Below are positions 9,803 to 55,193 of a stretch of DNA of 64,000 bases, one piece after another. The stretch's first letter is position 1. The number at the start of each line of letters is the position of its first letter. The stretch lies in the NCBI RefSeq assembly GCF_041381155.1, contig NC_091142.1, forward strand, positions 37,559,604 to 37,623,603, in the 5' to 3' direction. The position numbers and the translations under genes were made by a program. The notes under the pieces are model-generated. The model saw nothing but the letters and a program-made list of their open reading frames with translations, had not been told where the DNA came from and did no database searches. Source of the stretch: Argopecten irradians. Taxonomy: Eukaryota > Mollusca > Bivalvia > Pectinida > Pectinidae.

Positions 9803-9807
9803 CATGT

Positions 9808-9896
9808 TAAACAAAGATGTCATTTCTACAATAGAAGTAGCTAAGTGTTCCTGTATAACACAGATGTCATTTCTACAACAGTAGTAGGTGTTTCAA
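9808..9896. repeat. 43-bp minisatellite, short second block
   Basis: Two copies of the same 43-bp unit, isolated between the TIR element and the poly(A)-ended segment. Confidence 0.85.
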
Positions 9897-19893: not shown

Positions 19894-20207
19894 TCAGTTT
19901 TGAAAGTCTTTCTTTTCTAAAGGTCGGTTCTTATTAAACACTTGTTGAACGGTATCAGCTGTTAGCGTTAGTTCAGCTTCTTCTAACGCACTACAAAGCA
20001 GTGATACTTTCTCCCTGTCAGGACATGACTGATTCTCGTGCCAATACATGAGAAGGTTTGTTTTCAGTTTGTTGGGACTATCTTTATAGACCTGTTCAAA
20101 ATCCTTATACTTGGTATCAGGTATTTCTAGGTTGACGGCCACTTCCCACATCTTATTAAGGTCAATCTGTTTAGCAAGACAAAGCATGCTTTTGTCGCCG
20201 AAAAAAT
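19894..20207 (-). CDS. Exon 32: death domain and stop
   Basis: The terminal exon. The acceptor CATTTTTTCAG precedes it, and its first two bases complete the codon left by exon 31. It reads 103 residues to the stop. The segment LNKMWEVAVNLEIP, a lysine/tyrosine-rich middle and the LLMYWHE and VSLLCSALEEAEL segments match the six-helix death fold: hydrophobic spacing, a Trp in the fifth-helix region, and a final L-x2-AL helix. The frame stays open upstream to 20400, but that part matches a decayed copy at 22855-23050 and is better read as intron. Confidence 0.7.
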
Positions 20208-23200: not shown

Positions 23201-26200
23201 GGGCTGGGTGACGGAGTTAAATTAGGTCATATTCAATAAATGGTACCTTTTTGCAATAAAAATGAGTGAATTTGGAATATTATATTTTTAATTTGATCAA
23301 AAAGTCTTTAACTAGTTATTTCCGGAATCTGTTTTTTAGAACTTTAATGACTATAGTTGTCATATCCAGAAATCATTATCCTTTCGACTCAGATAATAAT
23401 GATATTCAAACAACTCCTGAAGCATCGTCTTATTATCCGACACAAACACGTATTTTTTTTATTGTTATGTTAAATATTTTTGTTTGCATTGTGGATATGA
23501 GTTTCGCTCCGTAATACACTATTTTACGTTAAAGGGACAATTCACTCAGGCTAATTCTTTTACATAACCAAGAAGCAAAATATGGCATAAATGTATTGTT
23601 CTACATTTCTTATGAAACATTTAACTCAATATATTGACAAATTCCACGTTATTTTTAAGTATTTTAATTGATACCGTTGTAACTACAAATCGTTGATCAA
23701 TACGATTAAGCAGGTACAGTATGTACTCTGTACCCATTCCCGAGCCAAAGTCACGCACGTTAAACATATGAACTACATAACCACTGAGGAGGTAATAAAA
23801 TGATTCTTAGGCAAGACAATTCATCTAATAAGGTAAACCACTACTGTCAGAGCGATTTGAGCAGTTCTAGACAAAAGTTGCATTACTCTACGAGCAAGGG
23901 ACAGGGTTCGGCATACAAGATATTCGACCACAATGTGTAATGGCGGACAGCGAGCGAGTTTGAAAGTTTCACACACATTTCACCACCATGGGCTTTTCGA
24001 GCATATCACGGTAAAACCGACTGATCTAATTTCCATTAGAACCGATTTTTTCCCCGATATATGTTCAAATTTTAATGTTGTCTTAGATTGAATTGTCCCT
24101 TTAAAACTTTGTGTTACCTTTATCAGTGCTTTTTGTGGAGAATCTACGGTACCAGCGGGGAATGTAATTACTCTTTGTTGGTCTTCAGGACAGCGATAGG
24201 TCAGTTCCTCATTCGGATTCAGCTCAACTATAACCTCATGGTTACTGTTCCGAAAGTGACAAGAACAATGTATCTGTATACTGTTGTGTAATGGTTAATG
24301 CTACAGAGCGTGATATATTGTATAGTTGATGATATTCGCGGGTTTTCATTTCGCTAAATTCGCGGGTACATCCAAAATTGCGATATATCATGGTTTCGCC
24401 TATTCAGAATTGGACTTTAAAAGGCTAGACAGATAATTCGCAAAAATAAACCCCGGCGAATGAGTCTACAACAGTAAATCGCGAAATGTAACAATTATAC
24501 AGGAAGATGTAAATTACCTTATTAAACTGGGTATATTTTAGTATGTAAGTGAATGTGTTTTAAGAGTCGAAAAATCGTCATGCAAATCCAGCGACTGAAT
24601 ATTCCACTTTTCCATTTTCCTATTGTAATACTTGAAAAAGACAAATTTAAGGCATGATCAATAATGATATTTTCAATTGTTAACGAAATCAGTTTACTGA
24701 TAATTTTTTTCCGTATAAATCATAATGTATGATAAACTTACATGCTTTGTTCAGGCAATGGTTCTGCCTCCATCCTTTGCAAGGGAAATTCAAATAAAAT
24801 AAACTTTGTGAAGGTTAATACTATTGAGCGACAGTTGTATATACAACAAAACCCCATAATAAATATTGGAGAGAATTACGCATTAAATCCGTGTGTAAAT
24901 CCAAACTATTTTAAACACACGATATACATACATAGTGAACTTGCCGGACATTATTTAGAAACAATTTGCCTTATACAACTATTTTATAATTCTTGTTGGA
25001 ATATTGCTCAATAAAAGAAAGTGAATATATTACGACAGCTACAGTGTACAATTTTCCTTCCAAACAATCTAGTTTTAATTGTTGTTTACATTGTTACGTT
25101 TTACTTACGCTGTCCTTTCATAGATCATTTTAGAGCCGGTCTTCAACCTTAGAAACGGGAAGGGTCTGATGATTAATTCTTTTGTAAATATAACAACAAT
25201 GTGCAACGTAATAAATAACATCACAATTGCCACTTCGTTGCTGGAGTCAATTAATGAAACTTAAAATGAATAGATTTGTTATGTAATGAAACTTAAAATG
25301 AATAGATTTGTTATGTTGTGGATGTATACAAATGTACACAAATCAGAGTGTACTCTTAAACTGCGAAATCCCAATTTATAGGGTCTCTCTTTATGAAATC
25401 ATTGTGCCGTTTTTCAGCCAACCAAAAACGATGTTGCAAACGACGACGCCATTTATAACATATGTTTAAGGCAATAAAAATACCTGTTACAAGCAGAAAT
25501 TGAATTATATCCATAAAGCTATACATGTATCTCTTGCAGATAACTTATTTACAGGTTTTCAGTTTATACTTACTTGGGCAATTCAGGGATTCGTTCATAT
25601 CCTGATTTATTTCTGAAATAATAACAATATACAATCTTCATTCTATTGTCAAATAATGGTACATTTGTATCTTCTCCTTTCATTGAAATTAATGAACTAC
25701 AACAATGTATATCACCTGCGTACTATTGTCCGACTAACTTAACTTAAATAAGACATACATAAAACGTTTACATCTAATCTAAACGAAATACTAAAATCTA
25801 ATCTGGACATATCCTATGGCGTTATATATCTCGCTTGTTGAAGCTGACAATCCAAGTTTAAACAATCGTATCGAGATGATGTTTGCTTTCAAATGGTTTT
25901 CAGATGACACTATGCATATGAGTACCTAATTACCAGTGCTGAGATAGTTGGGCATACAAACAGTGCAGAGTACAATACGCGTCCAGATAATTAAACGCAA
26001 AATAAACAGTGCACTCCCCTGTTTTTGTTTTTATTTATCATCCTAGACACATTAAGGATATAGCTGATTAGTACTGGGGCAACCTTCACAAGAATAACTC
26101 TTTATTCTATAAGTGCCCTTTTTATTTTGAGTTGAGTTATCGGGGCTCTATATACAGGGGATACCAGCAAACTTTCTAAAAGAGAAAAAAAACCCATCTC

Positions 26201-29200
26201 AACACCAGTGTTTTAACTTGCACTGTCATCTTTAACTACTCAGATGGATCCGAGTGCTGATCAATTTTTAAATGTGATATCATATACTTACAGGATATAT
26301 TTCAGGATTCCGTCCATGGCTTCCCTCATCCTTTGAAATATGAAAATAACATCTTGGTAAAATTTTGTATAATGTTTAAATTGGTCAAAAATGTATTATT
26401 CCGACTACAGTGTTATCTAATTGATCTATTTTATATGTTTACGCAGGAGTTCATTCCATCCCGCTTCAAAATACGCAAATTGATTTAAATTGCTTACCAC
26501 TGATATGAATCGCAAAGAAAAGCTTTTAAAACAAAGTAATATTGTTGATGAATAATCGATTAACAAATTAAGTCTTTCAAACACATTTGAATACTCAGCA
26601 ATTGTTATGTTCTTGTACTGAGAATAACATATAAATATAAATAATAATATATCAATCTTACCCTTTCAGGCGATCGACAATTGAATTTGCTTCTCTGAAA
26701 CAGACAATAAGTAGAAATGTACCAAACATATGAAGACTCGATTCGAATTGAAAGGAACTACTTACACAAAGTTTAGCTTATTGATCAATTATTATTTTGA
26801 AATACCACAAGTGCGAGTCATTAACCCCTTAACTCCCAGATACGCCAAACTACGCCAATAGCAGTTCGGTGTAGGAAATACTGACTTATCTCCCTTGTTA
26901 CTGAAGCTATTTTGAAACTAAATACACCTACTTAAACTAGAGGTAATGGTATTTCTTGCTGATTGACCATGGTAGTCTCTGTTTCACATTTTATATTACA
27001 TGTACATGCTTGAGAAAAACTTGACTCTCAACCGGAAAAACACATTATTTAACAATACTGTACAAAACAAGGCAGTCGTATCCATGGCAACAGTTTTTCT
27101 ATTAATTAAATGACATGAATTAGGTGTGCATGAACAGTCCATTCTGTCTATTATAATTTTTGTTGAAAAGTACATAGCAATTACTTTGTGCTTACAATGA
27201 AAAATATGTAAACACAAAGCAAAGTGCATGTGATTTTCATGTTGGAAGATGGTTGCTATGGTAACAGAAAAATGAAGGAAGAAACTTAATTTATACTTGG
27301 AATTTGAAAATGCATTATCCTTTCATGTGTACATGTCGATAAGTGATACAAATACTTATCTTCTTCCAAAAAACACGAGGAAAAACCACTCTGTAAGAAA
27401 ACGAATTTTGGAAACTAACAAAAAACATCGGTTTCTATAGAGTTTCAGTTTCCTTGGAAACGGACCAAACCAGACAAAAGAAGGATAGCTTTAGCATCAA
27501 AGGGATAACCCTCAAGCAAATAAAACAAAAATCTTTATTTTTTTAGCCTTATGAAGACATTTCCTTTGCTCCAAATCCTTTTTAATGGTTAATTTATGTT
27601 TTTTTATAGAAATATGCAAGTTTCGGTTACCATGGCAACTTCATTGAAACACAAAAATCAATTTTTTCAAGAAAATTGAATAGATCGTGTTCTAGTTTCT
27701 AAATATATATGGGTTGCTTACCAAAATTATCAACGGAAAATGGAGAAAAAACGCATTGAAATAAAAGTTGCATTTTTCATCAGACTCCTAAAAAATTCCT
27801 GGATTTTGAAATACCACAAGTGCGAGTCATTAAGTAACAGGTTTAAATTATTTCTGGTTAAATTTTCAAAGATACCTTGGATGAATAATACAATCTACGA
27901 AATCAATTACGTCTTATTCAAAACAATTAAACTCACATGCTATCAAGGATATCGTCAAACCTGTAAAAGAAAAAGAACTTGTACATAAATATTTAGAATT
28001 AGAAATGATTTACATCGAAAATGAAAGGGCAAAATTTCCATAAAATTTTGGCGAAAACTTTAATATGTGAAGCGATCTTTATAAATCTAACAAGCATACT
28101 TTATCTTTGAAAATAGTATTCTTCAATGGATTGTAGGATAATTGCATTATTTTATTGCCAGTAGCAAAAACTACAAAACTATGGCGGCTATTGATGCACT
28201 GTTTTAACCCCGAGATGTAAGAGAACACAGCCTTAAAGTTGATAAGGCTTAGCAACACACGTCCCCTGTCGTCAATTACATTTTCTATAGCAAGTTATTA
28301 TTTCTTAGTTATGCTATCATTGTACGAAGTTTGAACACATTCGTGATGTGTTTTTCAGTTATCGTCCGGAAGCTAAAATTTGAAGAAAAAAAAACAATCT
28401 ATTTTTAGTAACAGTGACCTTTATAGTTGATATATAGGCCCCAAATTCAATCCCACGTTGTGTTCTCCCATGTGTTACCATTGTATGAAGTTTGATCAGA
28501 ATCTGTTGATGTGTTCCAAGTTATCATCCAAAAAACTCTTTGTGAGACAATATATTATTAGTAACATATACTTTGTAGCTGACCATTTGACCTCAAATAC
28601 AATCCCAAGCTCTATGTTCCTATATGCTATAATTGTATTAAGTTTGAACAAATTCCGTCGATATGTTCTCAAACTTCTAAAATGATCTATTTTTAATATC
28701 AGTGATCTGACTTTTTGACCAAAATCCAATCCAAAGCTGTATTTTTTCATATGTTACCATTGTGTGAAGTTTGATCAAAATCCGTTTATGTTTTCTCAAG
28801 TTATGGTCTGGAAATATTTTTTTCTAAACAATCTATTTTTTAGTAACAGTGACCTTATCACAGTTAACATCTGGAAAACAATTCCGGACAGACACACAGA
28901 CGGGAACAAACACTATAGGAGATTTCAGAAAAGATGGCGATGACGTCACACAAAGGTACATCCGGGCGCTCAAAGGTACAACTCTTATATCTGTACACAT
29001 AAACATTGTAGGAACACAGCCGCTTGCGATGTTTGTTTACATTTTATTGTAATAAATAGTACGCCAATCCGAGAACTATTGCGTTATTTACATTTCAAAA
29101 AGTGTAAATAAAAATATTTTATAATAATATATGAATTTAAACTTATAGTATTCATATATTTTACTCTGTTTATACTCCATTTTCGACCGCTACGAGAAAA

Positions 29201-32200: not shown

Positions 32201-35200
32201 TTAAACATTTATTTACTGACATCGTAATATTTTCCTATTACAACTATTACAGGAAATTCATATTATCCGATATCGAGTTTTGTGCCCGACTAATGTCGAT
32301 GTTAACGCTGAAAATGCATTGTTTCTTGGTATTATTCCGCTTCTTTTGTTGACTTTAAATTCGTAAAATGAACTTAACCCGCGAAGGGCGTCAGAACGCT
32401 TGTTTTCAACGGGAATAAACACTGTAGTGATAAAGACCTTCCAAGTGAATATTTGCATCAGGGAAATAGGGACACAAAAAGACGATTTTCTCCAAAAGTA
32501 AGTAAGTTACAATTCATTAATTTTGCTGGAACACTTAAAAAATCGTTCTGATTTCAGAACAATTGGAATTATGAAGATATCTATAACAGTATTTTTATTA
32601 TTATTATTATATATAATGTAAGTTTATTATTTTGATAATTATTTTCCCAGAAATAAATTTCTTCTAAGCCCATAGGTACAAATGTATAAGTTTAACACTG
32701 TGTCTACCGATTGGTTTAAAGGATCACATACCCATTAAATTTAGATTTTCTATTCATTCCATAAATACTTGTTTAACATCATTCTTTCATTTCACGTACC
32801 TCTCCATCAGCAACTCGACTTCATGCTCTCTATAAAAGAAATAAAATGAAATAATAATTAAATAGACGTATACATTAACTTAATGGGTTATTTATGGTTA
32901 AGATTAAAATTTCAATCCTTAACTACCCAAGCCAAGGTAATGTTTATCAGACAATAACTGCCATCCAACAAAGTGACCATTATGACAACACTAATATTGA
33001 CATGAAAGACTCAACTGATCACTGTGAAAATGGCTGATCAATCTTATGGATTAAATCATCGTTGATAACCTCAATAATTTTACACTGCAGATCTGAACTA
33101 TGAGTAAATGATGTAAATACATGTACAAGCAAAACACTTTCTATTTATTGTGAAATCTAGTGCGTCGTATTAAGATTGTCTGCAAAGTGTTGGCATCTAT
33201 ATATACCATATACTCCATAAAAAGATAGTTTAATGCTTAAATATACTTACATGCATCCAAGTAATCTTGACATGGTTTCTGGCCATCTGTAAACACACAA
33301 ACTCACATATATAGATATGTATCGTCTGTAAATTACTGTGCTTGATAGGGATCAAAATAATAGTGCGAGTGGCTTGACCAATGAAATAAAGTATCAGTTT
33401 TGCCAAAATCCGAAAGAGTACGTTAAATATGGATTTTACGGAGACGTTTGAATAAAAATATCTTACTGAAAAGTATTATGTAATCATAAACAAACAAAGG
33501 TAAATATTGTACTAATAGATACTGTTCACCGATGAAATTAAATATTAGAAGAAGGGTATGCTGTGCCTTTAATTTTAATGGGATTAATGTTATTGATATG
33601 TATCAGGCATGCCGATTAGTGGTGTTCAGTTTCATTAATACTCCAAATGTGATGGCACTTTCATGGGCAAATCCAACTGAATGATCAATATACTGTGGAG
33701 TGATTTATTTCTATCTGGTTCTCCCAGAATTCTTATAATCATATATATATATACAGAGATATTCTACATTTTCCACGAGTCATTCCATATCAACGACACC
33801 AAGAAGATTTACAATTAAATATAATCTTCAGATATGTCTCTCAGACCAAGCGAAATAGGAGCCTGATTTTGTAAATCAATTACTACTAATTGAGTATTTT
33901 GGATTTAAGATTATATTGGTTAAGTTTTCATTTTAACGGATTTTATTGACATATGATGGTACATTCTGTTGGATCGAATAACAAGTTAAGTCCATTCACA
34001 TTCACTCCTTGAATTAGCAAAGGTTTGTGGATAAATTTACGTATCTTTACAAATAAACACGTAAGGGTCATTGTAAGTAAAGGGAAGTAATTCGTATACA
34101 CTTGCACGCTTCAAATGCACACTATTTATAATAATGTGTTAACACTGACATCTACAGATATTGGTATAATAGATCGAAATGCCATGCTCAGTGATATTAA
34201 TGCACAGGTCATTGCTATCAACTCTCTTTAAAAAGATATATTTTAATAATGGTACTTTTTACAGATGCAATGCTGTTTTAACTATATTTATATTAGCACA
34301 TTCCATTGAATAAAATCGAGATGTCTTCAGTCATCTCAAGAATGATTAACTTTCTGATTTAACCATGCTATGTTATAGTTGTATCTTTCTTACAGATCAC
34401 CATGACTTTATTAATACTATATTGTTTGTAGCTATAAGGGGTATAAATAAAACCAATGGGTTTTACCAATATAGTTATGTACATTTGTACATCTTTCAAT
34501 ATTTATCTATTAGTAAGTCCATAACACACAGGGCATCATTGGAATAATATATCAATAGTGATATGATTAAGCCTTCCATAGGGGGTTTAAAAAGAATATT
34601 CTTGTATATAAAGTCAGTCCAGAAAATAATGAGCTACGTTATAATTAAAAGTTTGGAAGGAAAGGATGATGTTGCGATGTCTAATATGCAATTATATGAT
34701 AAATCGTTTTCGAAATCGTTTGACATATATATATATAATAATAATTTATCAAAACGTTTATATCAGTTAAGATGTTACACAAATGTAACAGCATGAAAAT
34801 TTGATGTATTCCCAAAACACTGATCTTACACAAACAGAACTTCTAGTGCGCATGGAGATATGGCCGTAACCAAATTACTAGTTGTGATACACTTACCAAC
34901 CAATTTGTTTGTTTGTTTGTTTGAGTTTTACGGCCCATCGACAGCTAAGGTCATTTAGGGCCAAACTACAATTCAGGCATTAATATCAGGATAAAAGATC
35001 AGGGTAAGAAAAGGCAAGTAAGGATTAAAACACAGATTGTAAACGTTTATTTGATAAAAAAGGTTTGCATGGGATAAAATAGTTTTGGCTAAAACACACG
35101 AGAAAACTCATGCAAAATGTTGATGTAACGATGAAATGTTGAGCTGGTACGATGATATAATGAGAAAAACGTTCATATTTTATCTAAAATACCGATTTCT

Positions 35201-44200: not shown

Positions 44201-47200
44201 AATATTGTAGACTAGTAGCCTCTCAAACTGAATTATTACAGCAAAACGCCAACTAATAGCTAAAGGGTATCAAATTACATTTCTGTAAATACCATGACAC
44301 TTTTCGAAACGTGTTGTGTCTTTTAGAATGAGCACATCCATTGTTCATTTCCTGTGTATAACGTAAGGAAATATAAGATGGTTACTACAGTGTCACATAT
44401 TTATTTCACTAGTTCTTAATGATAATCATTTTCATTGTGCGTGCTTTCTCGCAAGAGTGTCGTCTTCGACTTCGATGACCTGATGTGACATTACATAACC
44501 GGGTTACCATCGTGGTTCTAGCTTGTCAACCGTCCATGATTTAACATCAGAAACATCGAATTCAGGGATGTTGGAGTTCTTCCTGTTTCCAACCTAGTTT
44601 CACCTAGATTTACATATCGTATATGATGTTTCCAGACTTTCCCCCGGCATTATGGAAAAGACACCAGATGCACATTTTGCGGAGGGTAGGGTTGGTTCTC
44701 CTTAATTCGTATGAAGCACAATTCCTCATTCTTGTGAACCTCAGTGACCATAGGTGGCACAGGTGGATTCTTTGAGGTCATCGATGAGGTCTGCAGTGAA
44801 GTTTCACTCTTTGCCAACCAAGTCTGGAAAGCACTGTAGAGAACTTTTTACTGGATAGTCTTCAATGGTCTCTTTACGCATACACCAGATGTGACACAAC
44901 CAGCACCTTCAAGGGAGTGGGAAAAGTCAGACCAATGAATATCATTTAACATTAATGGCCTCATTAGTGACCTCGATGATATCACCTGTGCCATTTATAG
45001 TTGCACGAGGGTCCACAAGATTGATGAATAGTACTTCATACAAATTATGGAGCTATGCGCTAAGGAGAACCAATTCCACCATTGGAAGAATGTGGATCTG
45101 GTGTTATTTCCATTTTGCCGGAGAAGTCTGGAACAGCATATACGTACGATATGTTAGAATCTGAAAGAGATCCCACATCCCTGAACCTGTTGTTCCTGAT
45201 ATGAACTCTGGCCATGGATGGGTCATAAAAGATGACAGGTTAGAACAACACTGGCAATATGGTGTCACTTCAGCTCATCGACATCGAAGACGACGCTCTG
45301 ACTTTCAACGAATTGGATACTGATATCTTGATTACTCTGATTCTGACTGCATGTGCCAGCTACCAGATATGTCGAGTCTCTTCAGTGGAAAGTGCAGTGA
45401 GACGAGAAAGCACGCACAATAATAATTGTTATCATTGAGAACCAGTGAAAGACATATGTGACACTGTAGTAACCATCCGACATTTTGCTTATGCTATGCA
45501 TAGGAAATAAACAATGAATCTGCTCATTTTCAAAGACACAAACGTTTTGGAAACTGTTAATGATATTAACGGAAACACAAGGTTAGCTTAGGTTACATTT
45601 GTTACGCTATCAGTAGGCGTTGTGCTGTGATAATTATTTTTGAGACGCTGCTAATCTACACAATTGAGGGTATAACAATAATTCTTTTTTACATTTTCTA
45701 TATATTTTTGTTGTTGTTGTTGATGTTTTTACTGATTGATAGGAGTTTATATAGCTGATTACGAGTAATATTTTGTTGTGGGAAACTTTTTTGCTGCGTC
45801 AAGCCAAGTATGAAAAATTTGCTGAAAAATCACCATTTTTGAGCTTGAAATCTTATTTTTTTCATTTCTTGCGTACAAATCACTACATATATTGGTATAT
45901 TTGGTCCTGATATCTATTGTGGTCATTTTGATACCTCATTTGTCTACTTCAGTTGAAAAATATCAGTGTTATGACTATTTTGCATTTTTTCAGTGAAATT
46001 TGAGATGGTGGCCATCTTGATGACGTCATAACCGGAACTTATATGATGTTAACATTGGTTTTTGTTGTTTTCGTTGTTTAAACTGATTGATAAGTGGTCA
46101 AAAAACTTATTTGAAATAATAGTTTGCTGCTGGGAAACATTTTTGCTGCATCAAGCCAAATATGAAAAATTTGCTGAAAAATCACCATTTTTGAGCTTTT
46201 TGAGATTTTTTCATTCCTGCGTAATAAATCACTACATATATTGGATTTTTTGGTCCTGATATGTTTTTGTTGTCCTATTGTGGTCATTTTGATACCTCAT
46301 TTGTCTACTTCGGTTGAAGAATGTCAGTGTTATGACTATTTTTCAATTTTCAGTCAAATTCGAAATGTCGGCCATCTTGATGACGTCATAACCGGAAGTT
46401 CATTCCAAGTTATGCAATGTTAACATTTTGATTTGTGATCAGTGGGTCATAAGGGTTCAGAAAAATATTGGTTCGGAGGTTTGGGGGGATGCATGTGGGA
46501 CCCTTCTAGCCCATGGCCTAATCTCGGACTGACGAAGGCCCTATAGTGGCTGAATATATATTCCATAGACATGATTTTGATTTTACTTTGAATTTATTTT
46601 GGCCTTTATTTCGGATAATTAATATACTAGCTTTTACCGTTTTTACCTCATTATGAAAAAAGTACCTAACACCAGGCAAAAATAATAACTTAATGACAAT
46701 TAAATAAAATAAGTACATGATGACCTTATAAAAATTCAAAATATTTAGATCTTGACTTAAAGGACATCATAGAGATAAAATGTTGCTGGACTTGTGACGT
46801 ATTAATAAGGAGAGGATATGTTTTAGGGAGATTTTCCCCTTCCTGAGGACAACACTTGTTTACAATAATAAACATTATCATGATTAGGGTTGTGATAGCG
46901 GTTTCCTAAGTTATTTTAATTTACCTACCTCTGTAATATATTCTCTAGTTCTGTTTCAGATCTAAGTTTGTGATTATGATTTATTAGATAATTTTACTTA
47001 CCTCTGTAATATATTCTCTAGTTTTGGTTTAGATCTAAGTTTGTGATAATGATATATTACGTATTTCACTTACCTCTGTAATATATTCTCTAGTTCCTTT
47101 TCAGATCTGTTATAGAAACCAAAGTAAAACATGTGAATGGATAGATCATGAAAAGTGAAAAATGCTTAAAGAAAATCTATCATTTTTGTCTTTAAACTTA

Positions 47201-50200
47201 ATTAATCACTAAAAACTGTATTTTTAGGTGACAAGTGATATCGTTTGAAAATAACCACAATAAAACATCAACGTTGTAAAGATTGGTGTTTATAAAGTAT
47301 TCCCATTTATGTATAGTATCCATATCGAGCATACCTGCGGCCGATCTGGAAAGTCATGTTTATTTTTCTGTTCAGAATTAAATTAAATGCTACACTAAGA
47401 TACTGTTATAATTGGACCCCTGTATTTGGGATCTTATACATGCTATTTATCGATTGCTGATTTTGATAATACGGCAATTAGTGCCACAGCTAGTAAACGT
47501 TATTGTCTTATTTGTAGGAATTTCAGACATTGTATTAAACACATTTTTTTAAAAAGTAATTCGTCAACATTGTTTGAATGTGACAATCATAAACGATAAT
47601 TCACTAGTACATTCTACTTACTTGTTCTGACTTGATTTCCAGGTGTTCAAGCTAAAACAGAAAATTACACATTGAAACGTTAATGTAACATTTGATTTTA
47701 AACTTCAAATGTCTTACATTGTAATCATTTTATCATACTAATACACTGTACAGTGAATGAAGATGTAACCTACATTCATTTTGATGCTGATTAGATACTT
47801 ACCACGAGGACCAATCTTTTAGGCATTTAATTCTGAAAGAAAAAAGTTTTATGCTGCAATTTAACATTATAAACTAATATATCATTTTACTTTGTGTTTT
47901 TGCAATATACCTAGAATATAGAATTTTGTAATCATATTTAGGATTTCAAAAAGGAAACTAATCTCGAAATGCAGAATTAGGTCAACAAGATTAGATTTTC
48001 AATTTCGACAATATTTCTTTGTTATTATATACATCAAAATGATTGGACATCAGGCAACAGCAGTCCTTACATGAGAGTTCATTTCATATACGATTTTTTG
48101 AACCGATTCTAAATTTTTTTTATTTTTGATAGCCTTGGCGCGCAAAAAATCAACCATGGAGAAGAGTTAAAAAGACATCACACGATGGACATCATAAGAC
48201 AGCATAAAACAAACTTGGTATCGGTATAAATAACAATATATCTTATTTCCCATTGTAATAACAATAAAGACTTTGATACGTAACCAATTAAATACCTACC
48301 AAAACCCTTTAAGTTACTAGTAGGAAATGAGAGACAGGCTGATACACACCTTTCATAATAAAGGATTTACACACACACACTTCAGCAAAATGTAAATGGT
48401 AACACCATACAGCGGATACAACGGTATCATACTCACATGCCTAAAGCTTGTCTGAAAGACAGAAAGCAAAATCAAATCTACGATACATTTACTCATATGG
48501 ATCTGTTTCCATAATGTGCACATTATATTCCGGAAAAAAAACCGCAAGCACTTTGTAATAAAAAGTAGACACTTACCTTGACCTTTGGACATGCAACTCA
48601 AGTAAATGTTCCTTAAGTCTATAAAACAGAAAGTTATAAATATGCAAATTGTTATCATGAAATTATTAATTGTATTAATATTAAATGTAATTGTAAATAT
48701 GTAATAGTTCGTGTCTAAAATTGTATTAACGATTCAATTCCATAATTCGAATATATCTATTTTATGTAATTTTCGGGTAAATTTCTATGATATGCTATAT
48801 TCGAACCTACTAGCTTTATATGTTATAGGTTATACGAATTCATACCAGTTAATGTGTACGTACTGGGTTTAGTTTTAATCTGCTATTATACATTGTACAT
48901 ATCAAATAACTGACATTTCATTTAAAGTTTACTTATTTTATATCCATAAATTTGAATACACAGGTACTCTATATGCTCCCGAGTATTTGTAAGCAGTATA
49001 TTTATATATACAATGTAACACTTACATATATCTATAAGCATTTGTTACAAACTATAGTACCGTATTCATCAATTGTATTCTATTATTCTCACCTTTTAAG
49101 TCCTTCTTTAATATTCGGAGACGCAGTAACATTTCTGAAACCACAAAAAAGAAACTCCAACCAAATGTTCCTTCACTACCATTTTAATCCTTAATACGAA
49201 TTTAAATGGATTGGTTTGTTATAAAAAAAAACATTGTCTTACATGCAATTTATTGGACTAAAAGCATTTTTTTCTAAGCCAACACCCGCTATATATTTAT
49301 TTTGACAAGAAAGCTATTGAATTTGAATAACATTTTCCTAGCCCTTGACCAAGGTATCATATCTGATATCTAATCAATTACAGTTGTTGGTTTCTCTTGC
49401 CATCCTACCTCTATACGGACTTCATATATCTATATATGGTTAAACGTTGTCTTTATACTTACTGATCACGAGATTTGTTGTCAATTCTGTGAAATTATCA
49501 AGAATAAAATTAAAAGACATGTTTGTTTGAAATGGTATATTTAGTTCCGAAAGGTTACAGTTTAAATACAGTCACTCGTGTAGTTACAAATTAATTAAAT
49601 AATAGATGTGATGATAAATAGGTATGAATATTCATCAACACAATAAGTAGAACTTACAAATCTACGTTTCAATAAAAATAAATCAAGCCTGTCTAAAAAC
49701 AATCAATGGAACAGTATAGGCCTATATAGCCAAGTGCTCCTCTTACACTGGACAAGTTTTGTTGTAATTGATCATTTGGGACACTTATTAAGCGGTCTAT
49801 CTACAGAGGTGGTCGCTAAGAAGAGTACCTAAGAAAACTAACTTTATATATCGTTATAGAAAGGAAATAGTCGTGAAAGATTAAAACATAAAAGATACTC
49901 ACTCATTGATCAAACTGCATGCGAGCTGGTACCTGAAAGTCAAAAGACCATCTTTTATCATGAAACAGTTTATCTTAGTCTTGATCTCTTCGCAAACAGA
50001 TCAAACAAAAAGTAATTTTGATCTTAGAAACACCATATAGCACATAATTTAGATGTCGTGTTCTAATTATAAGATTAAAACACAATTAAAATATCTTGAT
50101 TTAAGCACAGCTGTAGCATATTTTTCATTGAAATAAATCTATATTTCCCCTAATTTCAAAAGAATTTTCAGAACATGGTTTCCGAAACATTGGAAAATTC

Positions 50201-53200
50201 CACTTTTATATCTAATTTCCTTTTATATTAGATTCAAAATTTGATAAAGATGATATAGTATACTAACGAATAGTCGACGTCTTCGGAGAATGACCTGCAA
50301 GAAATTAATATCATTCATATCAGCAAGGTTACTTCATTCACGTTAAAAGAGCTTGTATGTTGATGAGCGCCATCACAACCTTAGATATCACATTCATACA
50401 CACACAAATTGACTGTAAGTTAAAAGATACATAATGTAAGTATTAACAATAACAAATGGATAAAAAGACAGGGTCACCTGCCCGATCACGTGGGTTTTCT
50501 CCGGGCACTCCGGTTTCTTTCCACACTAAGACCCCTCACTCGCTTACATCCGGGCCATCTACAGTGATTTGCATAAGTTGTATAACTTGTTTCGTAATCG
50601 ATGTAAAATAAATAAAGTTTATATATTTTTATATGAAAAGACTTACCCATCTTCAAGCATTCTGTTAAAAATGAAGAAAAAACACTTGTAAGACCAATTA
50701 TTAAAATGTGAAATAAAATCCAGTTAAACTCATGTATCAGGCAATTATTTGCACGCTGGATAATTTGAAAAATAATAACGGTGCGATTGAGCACTTATAT
50801 TTACATATCTATCTAGGAGCTATGAATAAAATAGCTTTGAATAAGTTATCAACAAACGTTTGAAAATAGTTAAAAAAAACACTTTCTACTTCAAGTAAAG
50901 TTCGGAACGAAGTCGACTTATGAATGAACATTTACATTAAACTGTTACTATAATAAACCATTGTTATGGATATGTCTATACGTATTATTTACAGATAAAA
51001 TTAATGACACTTCCAATAATAAATATACTGATTCATAGACTGTAAGGATTTTATATAAAACAGCCATACATACTTCTGAAGACATCCGTGCTGGTCCTTC
51101 AATCTGAAAAATGATGGATTACGGTTGTTCCAATTACATATGTATTGTCATTGTCAACATATTATTTTCCTACCTAACTTACTTTATAAACAAGTGATAG
51201 TTTTATGTACGAGAACATGTCTTTATATTTACATTATTTACATTCTAAATTGCCTATGTCATACCAATGTTGATAGCTACAGTTTCTCAATTGTCAAGAT
51301 TGTTTCTATTGAAACTTTCCAAAAATGTCAGGTAGGTTCGCCAGCTGTTATATCGTTCATGCTTATTTGTAGACAAAAGGTGGCCTATTAATTGTGTTAT
51401 ACTTTTAAAAGGTCTGGAACGTTTAGTATAGGAAACAAAACTAAAATTAAACACAGAAAAAATATATTTAAATGCACACTTTAATTGTAGTCATTATAAA
51501 GTAATAAGTATATTACTATGCAAAACCACTTAAATTTATAAAGCTTATAAGAAATTATTAATTCAATTTCATTTTAGTAAATATATAAAAAAAATACTTC
51601 AGAGACTTTCTGCATACATTTTAATCGTTTAACAAATGATTACAAAAATTATAGCACAATACACAGAGCACCGTGGTCTAGTTTATGCACGCAAAGACGA
51701 CAAAATCACAATCGAAACCTACGTTTTCGGCAAGGTCTTTTCAATACTGTTTTAATAAAAATACAAATTAACAAGCTTCGTTTAAAATGTAAGACAATAA
51801 CTACGCATGTTTGTTCTCATGGAATTCATCATTGGAAGCAAAATTAATAATAAGTTTTGGACATAGGAAATGTAAATCAACTTGGCGAGTCAACTAATCA
51901 CCAACATTTTTGAAAATATTGTCATCTTGCTGGTACCAAACCGTTCAATTAATTGGCTTTAAAATTATCGGTTCATAACGTACAAAATGACGCCGCCGTA
52001 TATTACGTCGCATTTTTTTCAGAGAGAAAAAAGTCCACCATTAAAAGTGGAATTACACGTAAAATGGCTTATCTAATAGTATTAACTTTAACTTTAATAG
52101 GTTTTTGTTATGGAGATATAACATAAAATATCTGAGTGTAGTTTCATTATAAACAGATTCGGTTTATTTAGAGTACACTTAGAATTTGTGTTATATCTCT
52201 ATAACAAAGAATATATTCAAATAAAGATAAAATATTATTACAGAATCAGAAACAATGCCAAATTCCACTAATATACACAGAATATTCAGTAACCACTTCC
52301 ACTTTTATACCTAGTGGAGCTGTAATATTGGTAAGCTTTTACCTATCTTTTAAAACATTAAATTACAGCTGTTCATATATGGATAGTTTCTGTCAGTTAA
52401 TATGTCTATCTCAGTTTAATAACAATATCACTCATTAAGACACAGCAACAACCAATAGACACTTACTCTGCGAGGAACCCATCCCTAGATAAAAAAAATT
52501 ACATCCATAAACAGTAACACGACAACCTGTTTTCCCCTTCCTTTTCCCTTTCTCTCTATTTTCTTTTACTTTGGTGTTTTCCCGACTCCTCTATCGTGTG
52601 AACACAAAAGTTCATTCAACACATTCTTTAAAATATCAATTATTACGTTCCAAATAATTATCTGGTAATTTGAATACCCCGTCATTAATTACGTCTAAAT
52701 AGGAAGTCTTATAAAAATGAATTATCCAAGCTTTAATAGCTGGATGTAAGAATCCATGATATCAGTATAGTGTTGAATAACGTACAATTATTGGAAGACA
52801 TGTCACAATTATGACGGAATATGGCCAATTATAGTACTTTCAGTGGTATTGTGTTGATGTTTCATAGCTTAAGATTTGATATACTTTCTTGTTGAGGAAG
52901 ACTTTTTCTTTCAAATGGTTTGCAGATGTCCCCTGTGATATCGGCCATTGTTTCTAAGGAAGTATATTATTTGCCAATAGAAATAGTCATAAACAACACG
53001 TGGAATTATTGTATGTGGATATTACGTCGTGAAAGTTGATTTTTTTTGCTTTTTTTTCTTCTTGGACATACGCATATATTTATATGCTGACAATTTGCAC
53101 GTCTATAACATGTTGTCATGTGCGTGCATTGTTTTGCATTGGGCTTGTAGTACAAGGTTGCGCATTAAGTCAAGTGTTGAAATGAAATCGGATTAGATAA

Positions 53201-55193
53201 TTAGCGCGCCCTTTTTTACCCACCAATTCTAACCTTGGTAACAACATGTTTTTAAAACAAAGGAGAGACCGATCGCACAGGGGAATTTGAACCATTTGAA
53301 AGATTATGTATTTATTTCATTACGAAAGTGTTTTAAGTCTATCACTGTCACACTCAAAAGTGAAGTTATTACAATGTAATTTGATAAGGCTTCCAATAAC
53401 TATTTCTTTAAATACAGCTCACGTTTTTCATTCATACCATATTTTGGTTTCCGATGGAATCTTCGCTATTCTGTAATAGAAGCACATACATGTGTTACTG
53501 ATAGATAGGCAATACGTATTTTCAAATAATAAAAATAAAAAACAATCAAATAAACAAACAAACAAACAAACAAAAAACAACAGAACAACCCGCCCCCCTT
53601 TCAAATACGAAAATCGTCCATCACCTACTACCCAATGTTTTTACCCAATGTTTTGTAACTCGATTAAGTGTTCGGATGGGTGCATTCGTTAGTAAAGCAT
53701 TATAAGCTTCAGTGAAGTGGTAAAATAGAACAGGCATGTAGATATACTGCTGCTAAACATTGGCTAAACAATTGGCCCCTACATAACGTTCACAAAGACA
53801 GTAGTATTTTAATACCATTAGCTCATTATGATATTTCTATCATATGTCGTTTCGTTTTAATCAAATAACTATAATGTAGTATCTACCACAATAGAAATTT
53901 ATGAGTTGGTGTCAGAATGCCAAACTGTTATAATAGCTTACCTGGAACTCCAGTCTTTCAGCTGATTAATTCTGAAATATTCAAAGCAATATCTATATAT
54001 AAATACCAGTCATGCTTATTAACCCTTATTATCATTTTTGTAACTCGATCTGGACTTATATACCGACACAATTTTAAATGTTAGTATGCAGTCCATTGCA
54101 GGTATAAACATTAGTTTTGTTATATATCCGTCCTTTACTCAATGACTACACATATATATATTTAGATACCTACAAGCATATGGCTGTAGAAATATCCATG
54201 TTCCTTGTCTGCTATACTTTACTGACTGTACTGAGTAATACATATATTTAAGTATATTTCTATGTGATACCTGTGATTAAAGTTTTGGTTAGATAAATAA
54301 ACATGTAAATAATGTGGAAGAATAGATAACATATTTACAATGTACTTTTGAATTTAAAAGCAACGTATCAACGAAGGATATCGTATATAAAGTTAAAGAT
54401 ACTCCACCGCTGACAAATGGTATTTTTTCACTATCAAAAACAGGAGCAGACGATTTAGTACTTTTCTTCAGCTACAAAAGCTACTTACTTTACACAATTA
54501 CCAACATTGAAAAGTTTGAGCTTCTAATTTTACTTCAAGTTAAAATATGAAAAATAATTAATTGCATCCCGAAAAAATTCCGTGGCACTATATCCTATAT
54601 GGAATGAAGTACTGATTGCGCATGCACTAAAGGCAAAATGAATTATTTTATATTAGTTTTTGTGTTGATTAGACAGATATATACACGATTACACGCCAAT
54701 TACTGTTCAAATGATGAATATTATTTATGCTCTGTCTGCGGTGGAGCATCTTTAAATGAAAATATTCATTCATTTGACTAATTTTACACAATGATATTAA
54801 TATCAATTCTGAAACATTTATTTTATGATCTTCGAAACATGTAAAACGAGAGATATTTACATTTTTGCTGCATCAGGTTCGCTTCCTCTGTCGCCCCTAG
54901 AATATAAAAAGTATACGAACGTACATTATCACATCAAATCTGTTAGACGTGTGATATGGCTGTTGTCCTATCCTTAATATATACTTTTTATTGCGCAAAC
55001 AGTTTTTTTTAGAGAATTGATATCTACTAATATCTACACCATTTATAGTAACAACAGTTTTCATTAATAGTTTATGATTATTAAATTTCTATTATTTTGT
55101 ATTATATGCATATAGTTGTACGATAAACAAAATATTGTTTAAACTAAAGATGAATTTACCTTGGTGCTTCGGCCATTCTTGATATCCTTTCCC
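19894..55193 (-). CDS. ZU5-UPA-death domain protein with 27 microexons (whole gene)
   Basis: The model has 32 coding exons on the minus strand, 2229 nt, about 742 codons. ATG is at 55176. Exon 1 (coding 17 nt) and microexons 2-28 (15-42 nt each) give residues 1-271. Exons 29-32 give ZU5 (about 285-398), a UPA-like region (about 400-560), a Ser/Thr-rich linker and a death domain (about 645-735). All 27 microexons are multiples of 3 and share one phase. No transmembrane segment or signal peptide is seen, so a cytoplasmic adaptor role is likely. ZU5-UPA-death modules occur in UNC5 receptors, PIDD and ankyrins and act in cell-death or signalling assemblies. One junction (exon 21 to 22) would create UGA as drawn. 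Exon skipping or a missed microexon could resolve it. Not matched to a named orthologue. Confidence 0.75.
20208..20709 (-). other. Intron holding one copy of a duplicated segment
   Basis: The sequence at about 20231-20420 recurs at 22855-23050 with many changes (core ATCACTTTGGGCCATTTTACGGCCAC). The copy here keeps an open frame joined to the death-domain exon; the other has stops. It could be an optional exon extension or a dispersed repeat. Confidence 0.45.
20710..21428 (-). CDS. Exon 31: UPA-like region and linker
   Basis: 719 nt. The first base completes a lysine codon with exon 30, and the exon ends with one base before GTAAGT. The early segment (KGAYAKYSKKK, GPYNILIFIGTGYQEDTWRL, VEKIEVTLGQKGPLAL) fits the beta-rich UPA domain that follows ZU5 in UNC5 and PIDD. 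The later part is rich in Ser, Thr, Pro and Asn and is probably a flexible linker to the death domain. The UPA call rests on position and pattern, not on an alignment. Confidence 0.6.
22071..22327 (-). CDS. Exon 30: second half of ZU5 domain
   Basis: 257 nt, starting in phase 0 after CTTCTACAG and ending two bases into a codon before GTATGT. It contains a FLKPVRIEIPL strand, matching the F-x-KPV-x-x-x-P motif typical of ZU5 domains, preceded by a run of alternating hydrophobic residues. Confidence 0.7.
22855..23050. repeat. Decayed copy of the segment at 20231-20420
   Basis: The same order of blocks as the copy next to the death-domain exon (TTAGGGCCGTTTTACGGCCAC, GGTCAGCTTCATATTGTAT, GTCAGAGGTCAAAGG) but with stop codons. 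Both copies lie in introns of the same gene and in the same orientation. Confidence 0.6.
23529..24104. mobile_element. MITE with 16-bp inverted ends, in intron 29
   Basis: The ends are TTAAAGGGACAATTCA and TGAATTGTCCCTTTAA, perfect inverses. The outermost TTAA could be a target duplication. About 576 bp, non-coding. Its right end is only 13 bp from the edge of exon 29. Confidence 0.7.
24118..24244 (-). CDS. Exon 29: first half of ZU5 domain
   Basis: 127 nt: one base completing the codon of exon 28, then 42 codons, ending in phase 0 at AAG before GTAACA. The segment VITFPAGTVDSPQKALI matches the conserved ZU5 core (hydrophobic strand, then P-x-G-x-x). The acceptor TTGTTCTTGTCACTTTCGGA-ACAG is pyrimidine-rich. 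This exon makes the phase change from the microexon pattern (split codons) to phase 0. Confidence 0.65.
24742..27960 (-). CDS. Microexons 28, 27, 26, 25 and 24
   Basis: Positions: 24 at 27937-27960 (24 nt, FDDILDS), 25 at 26662-26694 (33 nt, EANSIVDRLK), 26 at 26292-26330 (39 nt, MREAMDGILKYI), 27 at 25574-25612 (39 nt, NKSGYERIPELP), 28 at 24742-24774 (33 nt, MEAEPLPEQS). Each has a consensus donor (GTAAGT, GTAAGA or GTGAGT) and a pyrimidine-rich acceptor. Each starts with one base of a split codon and ends with two. Exons 24-26 look helical. Confidence 0.65.
27990..30177. other. Intron 23 (part): dispersed repeat and plain AT-rich sequence
   Basis: 28283-28920 contains about four decayed copies of a unit of roughly 150 bp, with the recurring words TGAAGTTTGATCA, TCAAGTTAT and ACAGTGACCTTA, a type of dispersed repeat. 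Nothing coding is seen in the rest. Confidence 0.5.
30178..31170. repeat. Segmental duplication, copy A
   Basis: About 990 bp that recurs in the same orientation at 31647-32624 with only scattered differences. It includes CRE-like GACGTCA words and a minus-strand ORF of about 97 codons. Confidence 0.8.
31647..32624. repeat. Segmental duplication, copy B
   Basis: A direct copy of 30178-31170. Both start TGGGATTTGCAAAT and end near ATATATAATGTAAGTT. About 480 bp of unrelated sequence separates them. The long ORF of copy A is shortened here by small changes, which argues against a conserved protein. Confidence 0.8.
32800..33286 (-). CDS. Microexons 23 and 22
   Basis: Exon 22 is 33251-33286 (36 nt, WPETMSRLLGC) and exon 23 is 32800-32829 (30 nt, EHEVELLME). 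Both have the standard phase. Exon 22 starts with A, which after the TG end of exon 21 would give a UGA stop. Joined to exon 20 instead, it gives ATA and stays open. Confidence 0.6.
33287..34879. other. Intron 21 (part), no confident exon
   Basis: AT-rich. The only phase-compatible candidate I found is a 12-nt segment at 34394-34405, whose acceptor is weak. It would remove the UGA between exons 21 and 22. Confidence 0.4.
34880..34903. repeat. Target-site duplication of the LINE, left copy
   Basis: 24 bp starting AGTTGTGATACAC and ending CCAACCAA, identical to 40879-40902. It is a second copy of the exon 21 splice donor region, without the exon body. Confidence 0.9.
35173..36117 (-). pseudogene. 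LINE ORF2, RNase H domain
   Basis: This frame carries the RNase H catalytic signature in order: IYTDGSKDG (Asp), FSAEACAIGLAL (Glu), AIICSDSLSVL (Asp) and WIPSHVGIKGNEQADKAAK (His and Asp). A C-terminal CHACDSPLTVEHILVHC segment is the zinc-binding tail common in such elements. It joins the reverse transcriptase frame through a frameshift near 36030-36060. Confidence 0.85.
35984..38830 (-). pseudogene. LINE ORF2, endonuclease and reverse transcriptase
   Basis: Endonuclease of the APE type: a start like IQWNIRGFKANIEEL near 38820, then IIMGDFNGHNSLWGS and GSLTHIDL and SDHFPIIL. Reverse transcriptase: WKESTIIPLPKPGK, NNYRPISLTSC, QSGFRNRRGT, VFFDLEKAYD, GVPQGGILS and the catalytic VDDFLI. Frameshifts lie near 38690 (within endonuclease) and between 36889 and 36850 (just before the DD motif). 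Confidence 0.9.
38839..40285 (-). pseudogene. LINE ORF1, Gag-like with three CCHC knuckles
   Basis: The N-terminal frame (39719-40285) starts MASKNKQNELQPKF and contains an RRM-like region. The second frame (38839-39714) has CRNCQRYGHHENNC, CQYCGREGHDEKDEC and CVNCGGDHAASARTC, three zinc knuckles of the retrotransposon nucleocapsid type. The two frames join through a frameshift near 39740-39790. The tail is Pro/Lys-rich. Confidence 0.85.
40896..42547 (-). CDS. Microexons 21, 20, 19 and 18
   Basis: 18 at 42527-42547 (21 nt, LENPSA), 19 at 41666-41686 (21 nt, KRRVSE), 20 at 41130-41150 (21 nt, TYKISD), 21 at 40896-40925 (30 nt, PQEIKELLG). All four have strong acceptors ending TTTCAG and GTAAG or GTAGG donors. 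The donor of exon 21 lies inside the LINE target-site duplication (40879-40902). Exon 21 ends in TG, so the base that follows decides whether the message stays open. Confidence 0.65.
41214..41590. repeat. Dispersed SINE-like repeat in intron 19
   Basis: A GC-richer stretch between microexons 19 and 20 with words that look like a short dispersed mollusc repeat (CCAGGGTCATGTAAGGACGG at the left, ACGATCATGCAATAGGGGAC towards the right). No ORF and no clear target duplication. Confidence 0.4.
43127..46521. mobile_element. 3.4-kb giant foldback element in intron 17
   Basis: The whole stretch is a near-continuous inverted repeat centred close to 44825. Left end TTAGGCCATGGGCTAGGAGG pairs with right end CTTCTAGCCCATGGCCTAA. 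The match goes on inward through GGTTCTCCTTA and GACACCAGATGCACATT, which have inverse partners near 45065-45110. Each arm contains a tandem duplication of about 430 bp (GGTTATGACGTCAT twice per arm). TA flanks both sides if GGCC is taken as the end. No transposase ORF. It was most likely mobilised in trans or arose by inverted duplication. Confidence 0.75.
46929..47106 (-). CDS. Microexons 17, 16 and 15, a tandem triplet
   Basis: 15 at 47074-47106, 16 at 47002-47034, 17 at 46929-46961, each 33 nt. The peptides are SEKELENILQ, SKPKLENILQ and SETELENILQ, so only the first few codons differ. The repeat unit (exon plus acceptor and intron) is 72-73 bp. The introns between them are 39 nt (47035-47073) and 40 nt (46962-47001), probably too short for normal splicing to join two of them. 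Confidence 0.7.
47622..48618 (-). CDS. Microexons 14, 13, 12 and 11
   Basis: 11 at 48577-48618 (42 nt, LKEHLLELHVQRS), 12 at 48437-48451 (15 nt, QALG), 13 at 47803-47832 (30 nt, IKCLKDWSS), 14 at 47622-47651 (30 nt, LNTWKSSQN). Exon 13 resembles exon 3 (INQLKDWSS), an older duplication. All donors are GTAAG or GTGAGT type. Confidence 0.65.
49093..50661 (-). CDS. Microexons 10, 9, 8, 7 and 6
   Basis: 6 at 50647-50661 (15 nt, MLED), 7 at 50268-50294 (27 nt, SFSEDVDY, donor GTTAGT), 8 at 49903-49932 (30 nt, YQLACSLIN), 9 at 49463-49486 (24 nt, IDNKSRD), 10 at 49093-49134 (42 nt, NVTASPNIKEGLK). All follow the one-base/two-base phase. A further 15-nt candidate at 49243-49257 fits the phase but has a weaker acceptor. 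Confidence 0.65.
50473..50560. repeat. Short dispersed repeat fragment
   Basis: A GC-rich fragment (GTGGGTTTTCTCCGGGCACT and on to CATCCGGGCC) unlike the AT-rich intron around it; it looks like a piece of a dispersed mollusc repeat. Confidence 0.4.
51074..54896 (-). CDS. Microexons 5, 4, 3 and 2
   Basis: 2 at 54861-54896 (36 nt, GDRGSEPDAAK, donor GTAAAT), 3 at 53942-53971 (30 nt, INQLKDWSS), 4 at 52467-52484 (18 nt, DGFLA), 5 at 51074-51103 (30 nt, LKDQHGCLQ, donor GTATGT). Exon 2 starts with the G needed to complete the AG left by exon 1. Confidence 0.65.
54393..54755. mobile_element. MITE, copy 1 of an inverted pair
   Basis: The ends are TTAAAGATACTCCACCGCTG and the inverse of TTAAAGATGCTCCACCGC. 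A related copy in the opposite orientation lies at 56864-57227. The interior is AT-rich and non-coding. Confidence 0.7.
55160..55193 (-). CDS. Exon 1 with start codon of the microexon gene
   Basis: 34 nt: 17 nt of leader, then ATG at 55176 and MAEAP plus two bases, followed by donor GTAAAT. An alternative acceptor seven bases earlier (ending at 55201) would only lengthen the leader. The context AAGAATGGCC has the A at -3 favoured for initiation. No earlier in-frame ATG is found in the exon. Confidence 0.6.

Follow-up and report, generated by a model that had tools for sequence, protein, structure and literature searches.

A conserved run of single-phase microexons in two copies of a predicted death-domain gene of the scallop Argopecten irradians

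In a 64,000-nucleotide stretch of the genome of the scallop Argopecten irradians (contig NC_091142.1, hereafter C9, positions 37559604-37623603; the whole stretch is called the window), a gene on the minus strand, extending from 55176 down to 19894, carries 28 consecutive microexons upstream of the exons for a predicted death domain. The array is genuine as well as unusual, and its exon structure has been conserved in two copies of the gene. We consider it probable that the window holds one of these two copies and that 26-28 normally included microexons, separated by phase-2 introns, encode a fixed N-terminal region of a death-domain protein. A constitutive N-terminal region is favoured because P0001 and P0002, two predicted database proteins of Argopecten irradians, both use the microexons in fixed order.

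Results

A single-phase run of microexons joins ordinary domain exons

The supported microexons (n = 28, of which 25 are paired with a paralogue and three occur in P0001 alone) lie on the minus strand between 24742 and 54896 and are 15, 18, 21, 24, 27, 30, 33, 36, 39 or 42 nt long, all divisible by three. In each of them the first base is the third position of a codon and the last two bases are the first and second positions of the next, as expected for phase-2 introns. An ATG exon and four ordinary exons, A-D, join the run in frame, and the in-frame joins give phases 0, 2 and 1 for the introns separating exons A-D. Microexons thereby account for 28 of the 33 coding exons, in one uninterrupted run, and for 825 of 2259 coding nucleotides (36.5%); the introns of the array range from 125 to 7609 nt, in a list that still includes the later rejected exon 47335. 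A sequence-only reading of the same DNA had claimed 27 small, phase-matched minus-strand exons, and this claim is confirmed by splice-site scoring, by P0001 and by the paralogue, with 28 exons of the same ten lengths. Its proposal that they join in frame to the ATG exon and the four domain exons holds for the joins but not for the complete set, as all microexons in order do not form one open frame: the junction of 40896-40925 with 33251-33286 reads TGA. The parts of the gene are as follows (window coordinates, all minus strand).

55160..55176, ATG exon coding part: MAEAP + 2 nt, phase 2 end; aligns with MADAA of P0002
54861..54896, microexon 1, 36 nt: GDRGSEPDAAK; paralogue 36169778
53942..53971, microexon 2, 30 nt: INQLKDWSS; paralogue DNA identical; like microexon 14
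53438..53470, microexon 3, 33 nt: IAKIPSETKI; TG at end; paralogue pair
52467..52484, microexon 4, 18 nt: DGFLA; paralogue pair
51723..51746, microexon 5, 24 nt: IEKTLPK; paralogue pair
51074..51103, microexon 6, 30 nt: LKDQHGCLQ; paralogue pair
50647..50661, microexon 7, 15 nt: MLED; paralogue pair
50268..50294, microexon 8, 27 nt: SFSEDVDY; weak donor gttagt (paralogue gtcagt)
49903..49932, microexon 9, 30 nt: YQLACSLIN; paralogue pair
49463..49486, microexon 10, 24 nt: IDNKSRD; paralogue pair
49093..49134, microexon 11, 42 nt: NVTASPNIKEGLK; paralogue pair
48577..48618, microexon 12, 42 nt: LKEHLLELHVQRS; paralogue pair
48437..48451, microexon 13, 15 nt: QALG; paralogue pair
47803..47832, microexon 14, 30 nt: IKCLKDWSS; TG at end; paralogue pair
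47622..47651, microexon 15, 30 nt: LNTWKSSQN; skipped alone, gives TGA; paralogue pair
47074..47106, microexon 16, 33 nt: SEKELENILQ; paralogue pair
46929..47034, two extra microexon 16 copies (47002-47034 and 46929-46961) in a 73-nt tandem repeat
42527..42547, microexon 17, 21 nt: LENPSA; paralogue DNA identical
41666..41686, microexon 18, 21 nt: KRRVSE; paralogue pair
41130..41150, microexon 19, 21 nt: TYKISD; paralogue pair
40896..40925, microexon 20, 30 nt: PQEIKELLG; TG at end; TGA when joined to microexon 21
34904..40878, non-LTR (long terminal repeat) retrotransposon in the intron after microexon 20; target-site duplication 40879-40902 and 34880-34903
33466..33467 (within a few bases), point of a 20-bp alignment gap; the paralogue has the 15-nt microexon PEQK here
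33251..33286, microexon 21, 36 nt: WPETMSRLLGC; its ATG is the P0001 start; paralogue pair
32800..32829, microexon 22, 30 nt: EHEVELLME; P0001 and paralogue pair
27937..27960, microexon 23, 24 nt: FDDILDS; P0001 and paralogue pair
26662..26694, microexon 24, 33 nt: EANSIVDRLK; P0001 and paralogue pair
26292..26330, microexon 25, 39 nt: MREAMDGILKYI; P0001 and paralogue pair
25574..25612, microexon 26, 39 nt: NKSGYERIPELP; P0001, not in P0002
25109..25147, microexon 27, 39 nt: LKTGSKMIYERT; P0001, not in P0002
24742..24774, microexon 28, 33 nt: MEAEPLPEQS; P0001, not in P0002
24118..24244, exon A: start of ZU5-like region; P0001
22071..22327, exon B: remainder of ZU5-like region; P0001
20710..21428, exon C: conserved family domain (read earlier as UPA, without profile support)
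19894..20207, exon D: predicted death domain and stop; P0001

The exons exceed chance in a scan that ignores frame

A first list of 29 microexons had the predicted phase open in all 29 and the other phases in 13 and 14. Because phase had helped to choose the weaker members of that list, the fair test is a blind scan, in which AG...GT pairs 9-60 nt apart were taken on splice-site score only, frame was ignored and overlaps were thinned to the best; the splice matrices were generic metazoan ones of our own writing, not trained on scallops. At a score of at least 15, the minus strand of 24742-55193 gave 17 candidates, of which 16 were divisible by three, and the predicted phase was open in all 16 vs. 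5 and 7 of 16 for the other two phases; splice-site scoring of the minus strand had been proposed as a check in the sequence-only reading. The plus strand of the same region gave 5 candidates, 2 of them divisible by three. With the threshold lowered to 14, 21 candidates were recovered on the minus strand, 19 divisible by three and 18 open in the predicted phase, vs. a mean of 1.4 and a maximum of 4 symmetric open exons in order-1 Markov shuffles (n = 30); the plus strand had 8 (2 divisible by three), and four stretches outside the region had 5 to 8 apiece, 1 or 2 of them divisible by three. Generic splice scores will yield some candidates anywhere, as the view that the microexons are a chance set picked by eye would have it, but the blind scan, P0001, P0002 and the paralogue DNA together exclude this view, and we regard it as vanishingly improbable. 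Candidate 47335-47367 (KINMTFQIGR) was dropped; it is absent from P0002, and the paralogue does not preserve its donor.

Two predicted proteins and a paralogue share the exon order

The predicted exon joins were made before P0001 was found. This 558-residue 'uncharacterized protein [Argopecten irradians]' was the sole match to the joined ordinary-exon query in a protein search, with 99% identity, and it begins MSRLLGC within microexon 33251-33286, continuing through seven more microexons and exons A-D in the predicted order. As a model of the window copy it contains just 8 of the 28 microexons. When the predicted N-terminal chain was used as query in a protein search, P0002 (449 residues) was recovered; its residues 1-248 track the chain microexon by microexon, with 174 of 259 aligned columns identical. 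Its layout differs from the chain in lacking candidate 47335 and in having a short insert at the 40896/33251 junction, where the paralogue DNA shows two microexons, an extra one of 15 nt and one of 36 nt.

The P0002 gene lies on the plus strand of C9 near 36.17-36.21 Mb, about 1.4 Mb from the window gene. Within 25 kb of paralogue DNA, each of the 26 microexons that follow the ATG exon has AG and GT at its borders, and the 25 paired microexons are equal in length, phase and order in 25 of 25 cases, the paralogue lengths being obtained by cutting P0002 at the window-exon borders. When the paralogue strand was scanned blind at a score of at least 14, 37 candidates appeared, 26 divisible by three and 24 open in phase; 21 of these 24 are array exons (of 26) and 3 are not. 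The opposite strand gave 11 candidates, 4 divisible by three.

Genome scans covered the 846-Mb Argopecten irradians assembly. With up to 3 mismatches, the microexon 2 pattern occurs in three places (the window, the paralogue and a fragment about 24 kb upstream) and the microexon 17 pattern in two, and no second array was seen within 100 kb on either side; it is on these results that we speak of two copies. A word-based protein search with the paralogue N-terminus returned only P0002 itself, and three such searches returned no relative in other species, a kind of search that does not show absence.

Two further observations concern the surroundings of the copies. The upstream fragment, at C9:37638913-37638949 on the minus strand (window +79255 to +79353), is an isolated piece that carries an exact copy of microexon 2 with splice sites, and together with adjoining paralogue-like pieces it appears to be the remnant of another duplication. 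Downstream of the P0002 gene, the plus-strand stretches C9:36203719-36203916 and 36210806-36211087 resemble exon C and the death domain (expectation values, E, 0.016 and 0.007) and suggest that the P0002 model may be cut short at its C-terminus.

Differences between the copies are most frequent at third codon positions

Across the 25 pairs (714 nt) there are 108 differences and no indel, corresponding to 85% exon identity, and the differences fall 30/27/51 on codon positions 1/2/3. With stop codons excluded, the ratio of nonsynonymous to synonymous divergence (dN/dS) is 0.48 in the coding frame vs. 1.17 and 1.16 in the two alternative frames, which shows selection at the protein level; a pairwise divergence of this kind cannot tell which copy is constrained. 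The 60-nt flanks are 46-48% identical when compared ungapped, a figure that exaggerates the contrast with the exons because gapped alignment of the surrounding blocks, exons included, reaches about 61-85%. For the first 20 exons dS is 0.25 and dN/dS 0.51; for the last five the values are 0.50 and 0.41. The 5' part would thus have a younger common history, either via conversion or via a separate duplication.

The window copy has lost a microexon next to a retrotransposon insertion

The 15-nt microexon of the paralogue, GCCTGAACAAAAGAG (PEQK), has no window counterpart: a 20-bp alignment gap spans it together with parts of its splice sites, and its best matches in the whole window, with 3 mismatches, fall within microexon 28 or tandem repeats of the plus strand. 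In both copies, TG precedes and A follows the position of this microexon. An ancestral frame would have needed it there, and loss in the window copy is on that account likelier than gain in the paralogue. With all 28 microexons included, the window copy reads TGA at codon 190, after 189 residues, whereas omission of exon 40896-40925 leaves a frame open for 742 residues; the start of P0001 is the first ATG after that TGA. A 5975-bp retrotransposon with reverse transcriptase, endonuclease and RNase H matches and interrupted reading frames lies in the same intron, flanked by a 24-bp target-site duplication that duplicates the donor site of microexon 40896-40925.

The TGA at the 40896/33251 junction, the 20-bp loss, the retrotransposon in the same intron and the beginning of P0001 at the first ATG past the TGA can all be read as signs that the window copy is decaying or split, so that only its 3' part (P0001) yields protein and the intact paralogue performs the full-length role. 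On the other hand, the ATG exon and all 20 upstream microexons retain open frames and AG/GT borders, the dN/dS of the 5' 20 exons is not near 1, though averaged over both copies, and exon 40896 could simply be skipped. We therefore treat decay or splitting as a possibility to be taken seriously, if somewhat doubtful, and one that is compatible with the favoured explanation of the array as such.

Skipping is mostly tolerated by the frame

The sequence-only reading had taken symmetric microexons in general to be freely skippable and inferred that this gene may make many N-terminal variants. The frame is indeed mostly kept: with exon 40896 omitted, it remains open after 26 of 27 single and 326 of 351 double skips, as well as after 1574 of 2000 random half-skips. 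There are limits to skipping, because an exon ending in TG joined to one starting with A makes TGA, which applies to 21 of 435 possible joins in the window copy and 6 of 325 in the paralogue, and some skips would accordingly act as off-switches. In the paralogue, no single skip interrupts the frame except that of the 15-nt microexon itself.

That the array is a splicing-diversity device, with subsets of microexons varied in front of one fixed death-domain module as in flatworm micro-exon genes, is in keeping with the phase-2 position of all microexon introns, with the frames kept by most skips, with some donors that are weak in both copies (for example microexon 8, -0.4 and 0.6; microexon 1, 3.1 and 3.1) and with a window copy that keeps its fused frame only when a microexon is skipped. 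Nevertheless, no microexon of its array is missing from P0002, nor any of the 8 within its span from P0001, lengths are equal in every pair, and no further isoform was found in three protein searches of a database clustered at 90% identity. A UGC motif close upstream of the acceptor is a mark of neural (UGC-dependent) microexons. Here UGC stands near the acceptor in 6 of 28 window and 2 of 26 paralogue microexons vs. backgrounds of 21% and 24%, and is not enriched. Numerous N-terminal variants are thus not supported so far, and we consider a diversity device unlikely.

The ordinary exons encode a predicted death domain in a large family

A C-terminal death domain is supported by profile searches. 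The Pfam death domain (PF00531) matched the full window protein weakly (E 0.02) and exon D alone at E 0.001 with 19.6 bits, below the curated cut-off of 22.6; it matched 3 of 3 family members, with a best E of 2e-07, and a three-member death-domain profile matched FADD (E 1.3e-05) and PIDD (about 4e-04) in the PDB. For exons A+B, a profile of four family members had ankyrin-1 as its best PDB match (E 0.018), with ankyrin-3 at E 0.16. The Pfam ZU5 profile (PF00791) matched 0 of 4 family members on these exons, and the 7 matches of a PF00791 genome search did not include them; hhalign against five scallop ZU5 stretches gave a weak probability of 6% (E 0.006). The ZU5 identity of exons A+B is only suggested by these results. 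Exon C gave no UPA match in seven family members, merely weak matches to DUF5472 (0.021), kinase (0.04-0.058) and GvpO (0.14), and no PDB match below E 0.38. Of the ZU5-UPA-death module named in the sequence-only reading, the death domain stands, ZU5 is suggested and UPA finds no profile support.

The microexon chain itself had a Pfam match to the FAM186A/B N-terminus below the cut-off (E 3.3e-4, 20.6 bits vs. 27), which was left aside; P0002 had no such match. No LRR, Ig/TSP or ankyrin-repeat match was found by Pfam in the N-terminal chain. By hydropathy, no stretch is signal-peptide-like or membrane-like: the best 19-residue Kyte-Doolittle mean is 1.09, and within the first 40 residues no 12-residue mean exceeds -0.3. 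AlphaFold predictions reached a mean pLDDT (predicted local distance difference test) of 34.7 for P0001 alone and 35.7 for P0002 with P0001, too poor for use.

The family is large. P0001 matches 52 genome stretches at E<=10, 34 of them at E<=0.001; four are the window gene, and 40 of the 52 are on C9. Paralogues of exon B, exon C and the death domain were seen at C9:18.29-21.77, 33.25-33.29 and 36.07-36.29 Mb, at C16:29.66 Mb and on C14, C7 and C577, with a cluster of the paralogue family at C9:36.07-36.29 Mb. In two other family members, about 1.2 kb before exon A contained no microexon candidate in one (L042) and a single weak candidate in the other (L036).

Traces of tandem duplication in the run

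Microexons 2 and 14 resemble each other (INQLKDWSS and IKCLKDWSS) with a score of 35 that was reached in 0 of 1000 shuffles, and the mean of the ten best pairs, this one included, was reached by 2 of 1000. A 73-nt tandem repeat at 46911-47128 carries microexon 16, with two extra copies in the window, and the paralogue has at least five extra 73-nt copies at C9:36179480-36179878. At both loci the extra microexon 16 copies are open, with donors that are strong and acceptors that are weak; a single microexon 16 copy is used in P0002. The single phase of the run would be expected from tandem duplication of symmetric exons but not from intron gain at scattered sites. Most of the duplication history of the run now appears to be gone.

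Discussion

We propose that an N-terminal region of roughly 240-280 residues, encoded by the 26-28 microexons and followed by the ZU5-like region, the family domain and the death domain, would normally include all microexons, which jointly may build a soluble, mainly helical region. This region could serve as the input part, for oligomerisation or the binding of a partner, of a signalling protein of the cytosol that acts through its death domain. The run would have grown through tandem duplication of symmetric microexons, which preserves one phase, and a later 20-bp loss in the window copy would have removed the 15-nt microexon, so that full inclusion now reads TGA. The product of the window copy may then be either the 742-residue fused protein, made by skipping 40896-40925, or a shorter protein from the ATG in 33251-33286.

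Several points weigh against this proposal. Microexon pairs other than 2/14 are at chance level (next best p 0.20), and a duplication origin of the whole run is unproven because this pair alone exceeds chance. The helical character is weakly founded because both AlphaFold models are too poor. The equal pair lengths are partly built in because P0002 was cut at window borders, although the AG/GT at the borders and the blind-scan recovery of 21 of 26 exons do not depend on that cutting. Support for microexons 26-28 comes from P0001 alone, and that for the ATG exon from the P0002 protein alone, the paralogue DNA stretch excluding this exon. The dN/dS of 0.48 is moderate and pairwise only, both proteins are predicted models that may omit isoforms, and the upstream half of the window copy may be in decay, as the loss there could indicate.

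Genes with long runs of symmetric exons in one phase include elastin and troponin T. The scallop gene shares with these one intron phase across a long run, in which skips keep the frame, but its exons are shorter, show no visible one-motif repeat and are placed before a signalling module. PIDD, UNC5 and ankyrin layouts represent the ZU5-UPA-death-domain class. The scallop protein is like them in its predicted C-terminal death domain with FADD and PIDD profile matches and in the ZU5-like region before it; it differs in an N-terminus with no LRR, Ig/TSP or ankyrin-repeat Pfam match, in an unrecognisable UPA and in not reaching the Pfam ZU5 profile.

Long microexon runs have been described mainly for secreted proteins of flatworms. 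According to the excerpt of PMC7653826, a micro-exon gene has 7 or more exons, of which no fewer than half are shorter than 70 nt and divisible by three, with a run of 4 or more; by this structural rule, as excerpted, the scallop gene qualifies with 28 of 33 coding exons in one run. Like the flatworm genes (Schistosoma, Hymenolepis, Echinococcus), it has a long consecutive run of <70-nt exons divisible by three, a likeness that is structural only. In the flatworm class, compared for secretion and coding share from excerpts of PMC10526429 and PMC5825161, about 80% of the coding region lies in symmetric exons of 6-36 bp (PMC5825161), whereas the scallop gene is 36.5% microexon-coded, has no signal-peptide-like N-terminus as judged by hydropathy only, and has its microexons fused to a death-domain module. 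The likeness to schistosome micro-exon genes drawn in the sequence-only reading therefore extends to the structural rule but not, as far as those excerpts describe the class, to a secretion-type N-terminus or to a microexon coding share near 80%. Among the matches listed in a search of open-licence literature (titles and abstract starts), there was no report of a mollusc micro-exon gene of this kind.

That such genes are no speciality of parasites is suggested by a mollusc run that is this long and strictly in one phase, that belongs to a death-domain family with a non-secretion-type N-terminus and that exists in two copies with equal exon lengths. A bolder reading, to which we give little credence, is that molluscs possess, independently of flatworms, intracellular micro-exon genes in which about 27 interchangeable microexons let splicing tune or diversify the signals to which the death module responds, or switch it off through TGA, the off-state having become fixed in the window copy. 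Whether the run is fixed, as we favour, or variable, two natural copies, one intact and one minus a single 15-nt microexon, are well suited to the study of how the spliceosome handles 26-28 consecutive microexons.

Other features of the window

Between 43127 and 46521 there are inverted repeats, whose arms reach 220 nt in length and 96% complementarity, and internal direct repeats of 362 nt; the whole is probably a mobile element. Three satellite-like arrays of a 43-bp tandem repeat, of about 22, 16 and 51 copies, occupy 7556-14144. The open frame at 5736-6440 on the plus strand encodes a CCCH zinc finger and probably belongs to a neighbouring gene as one of its exons.

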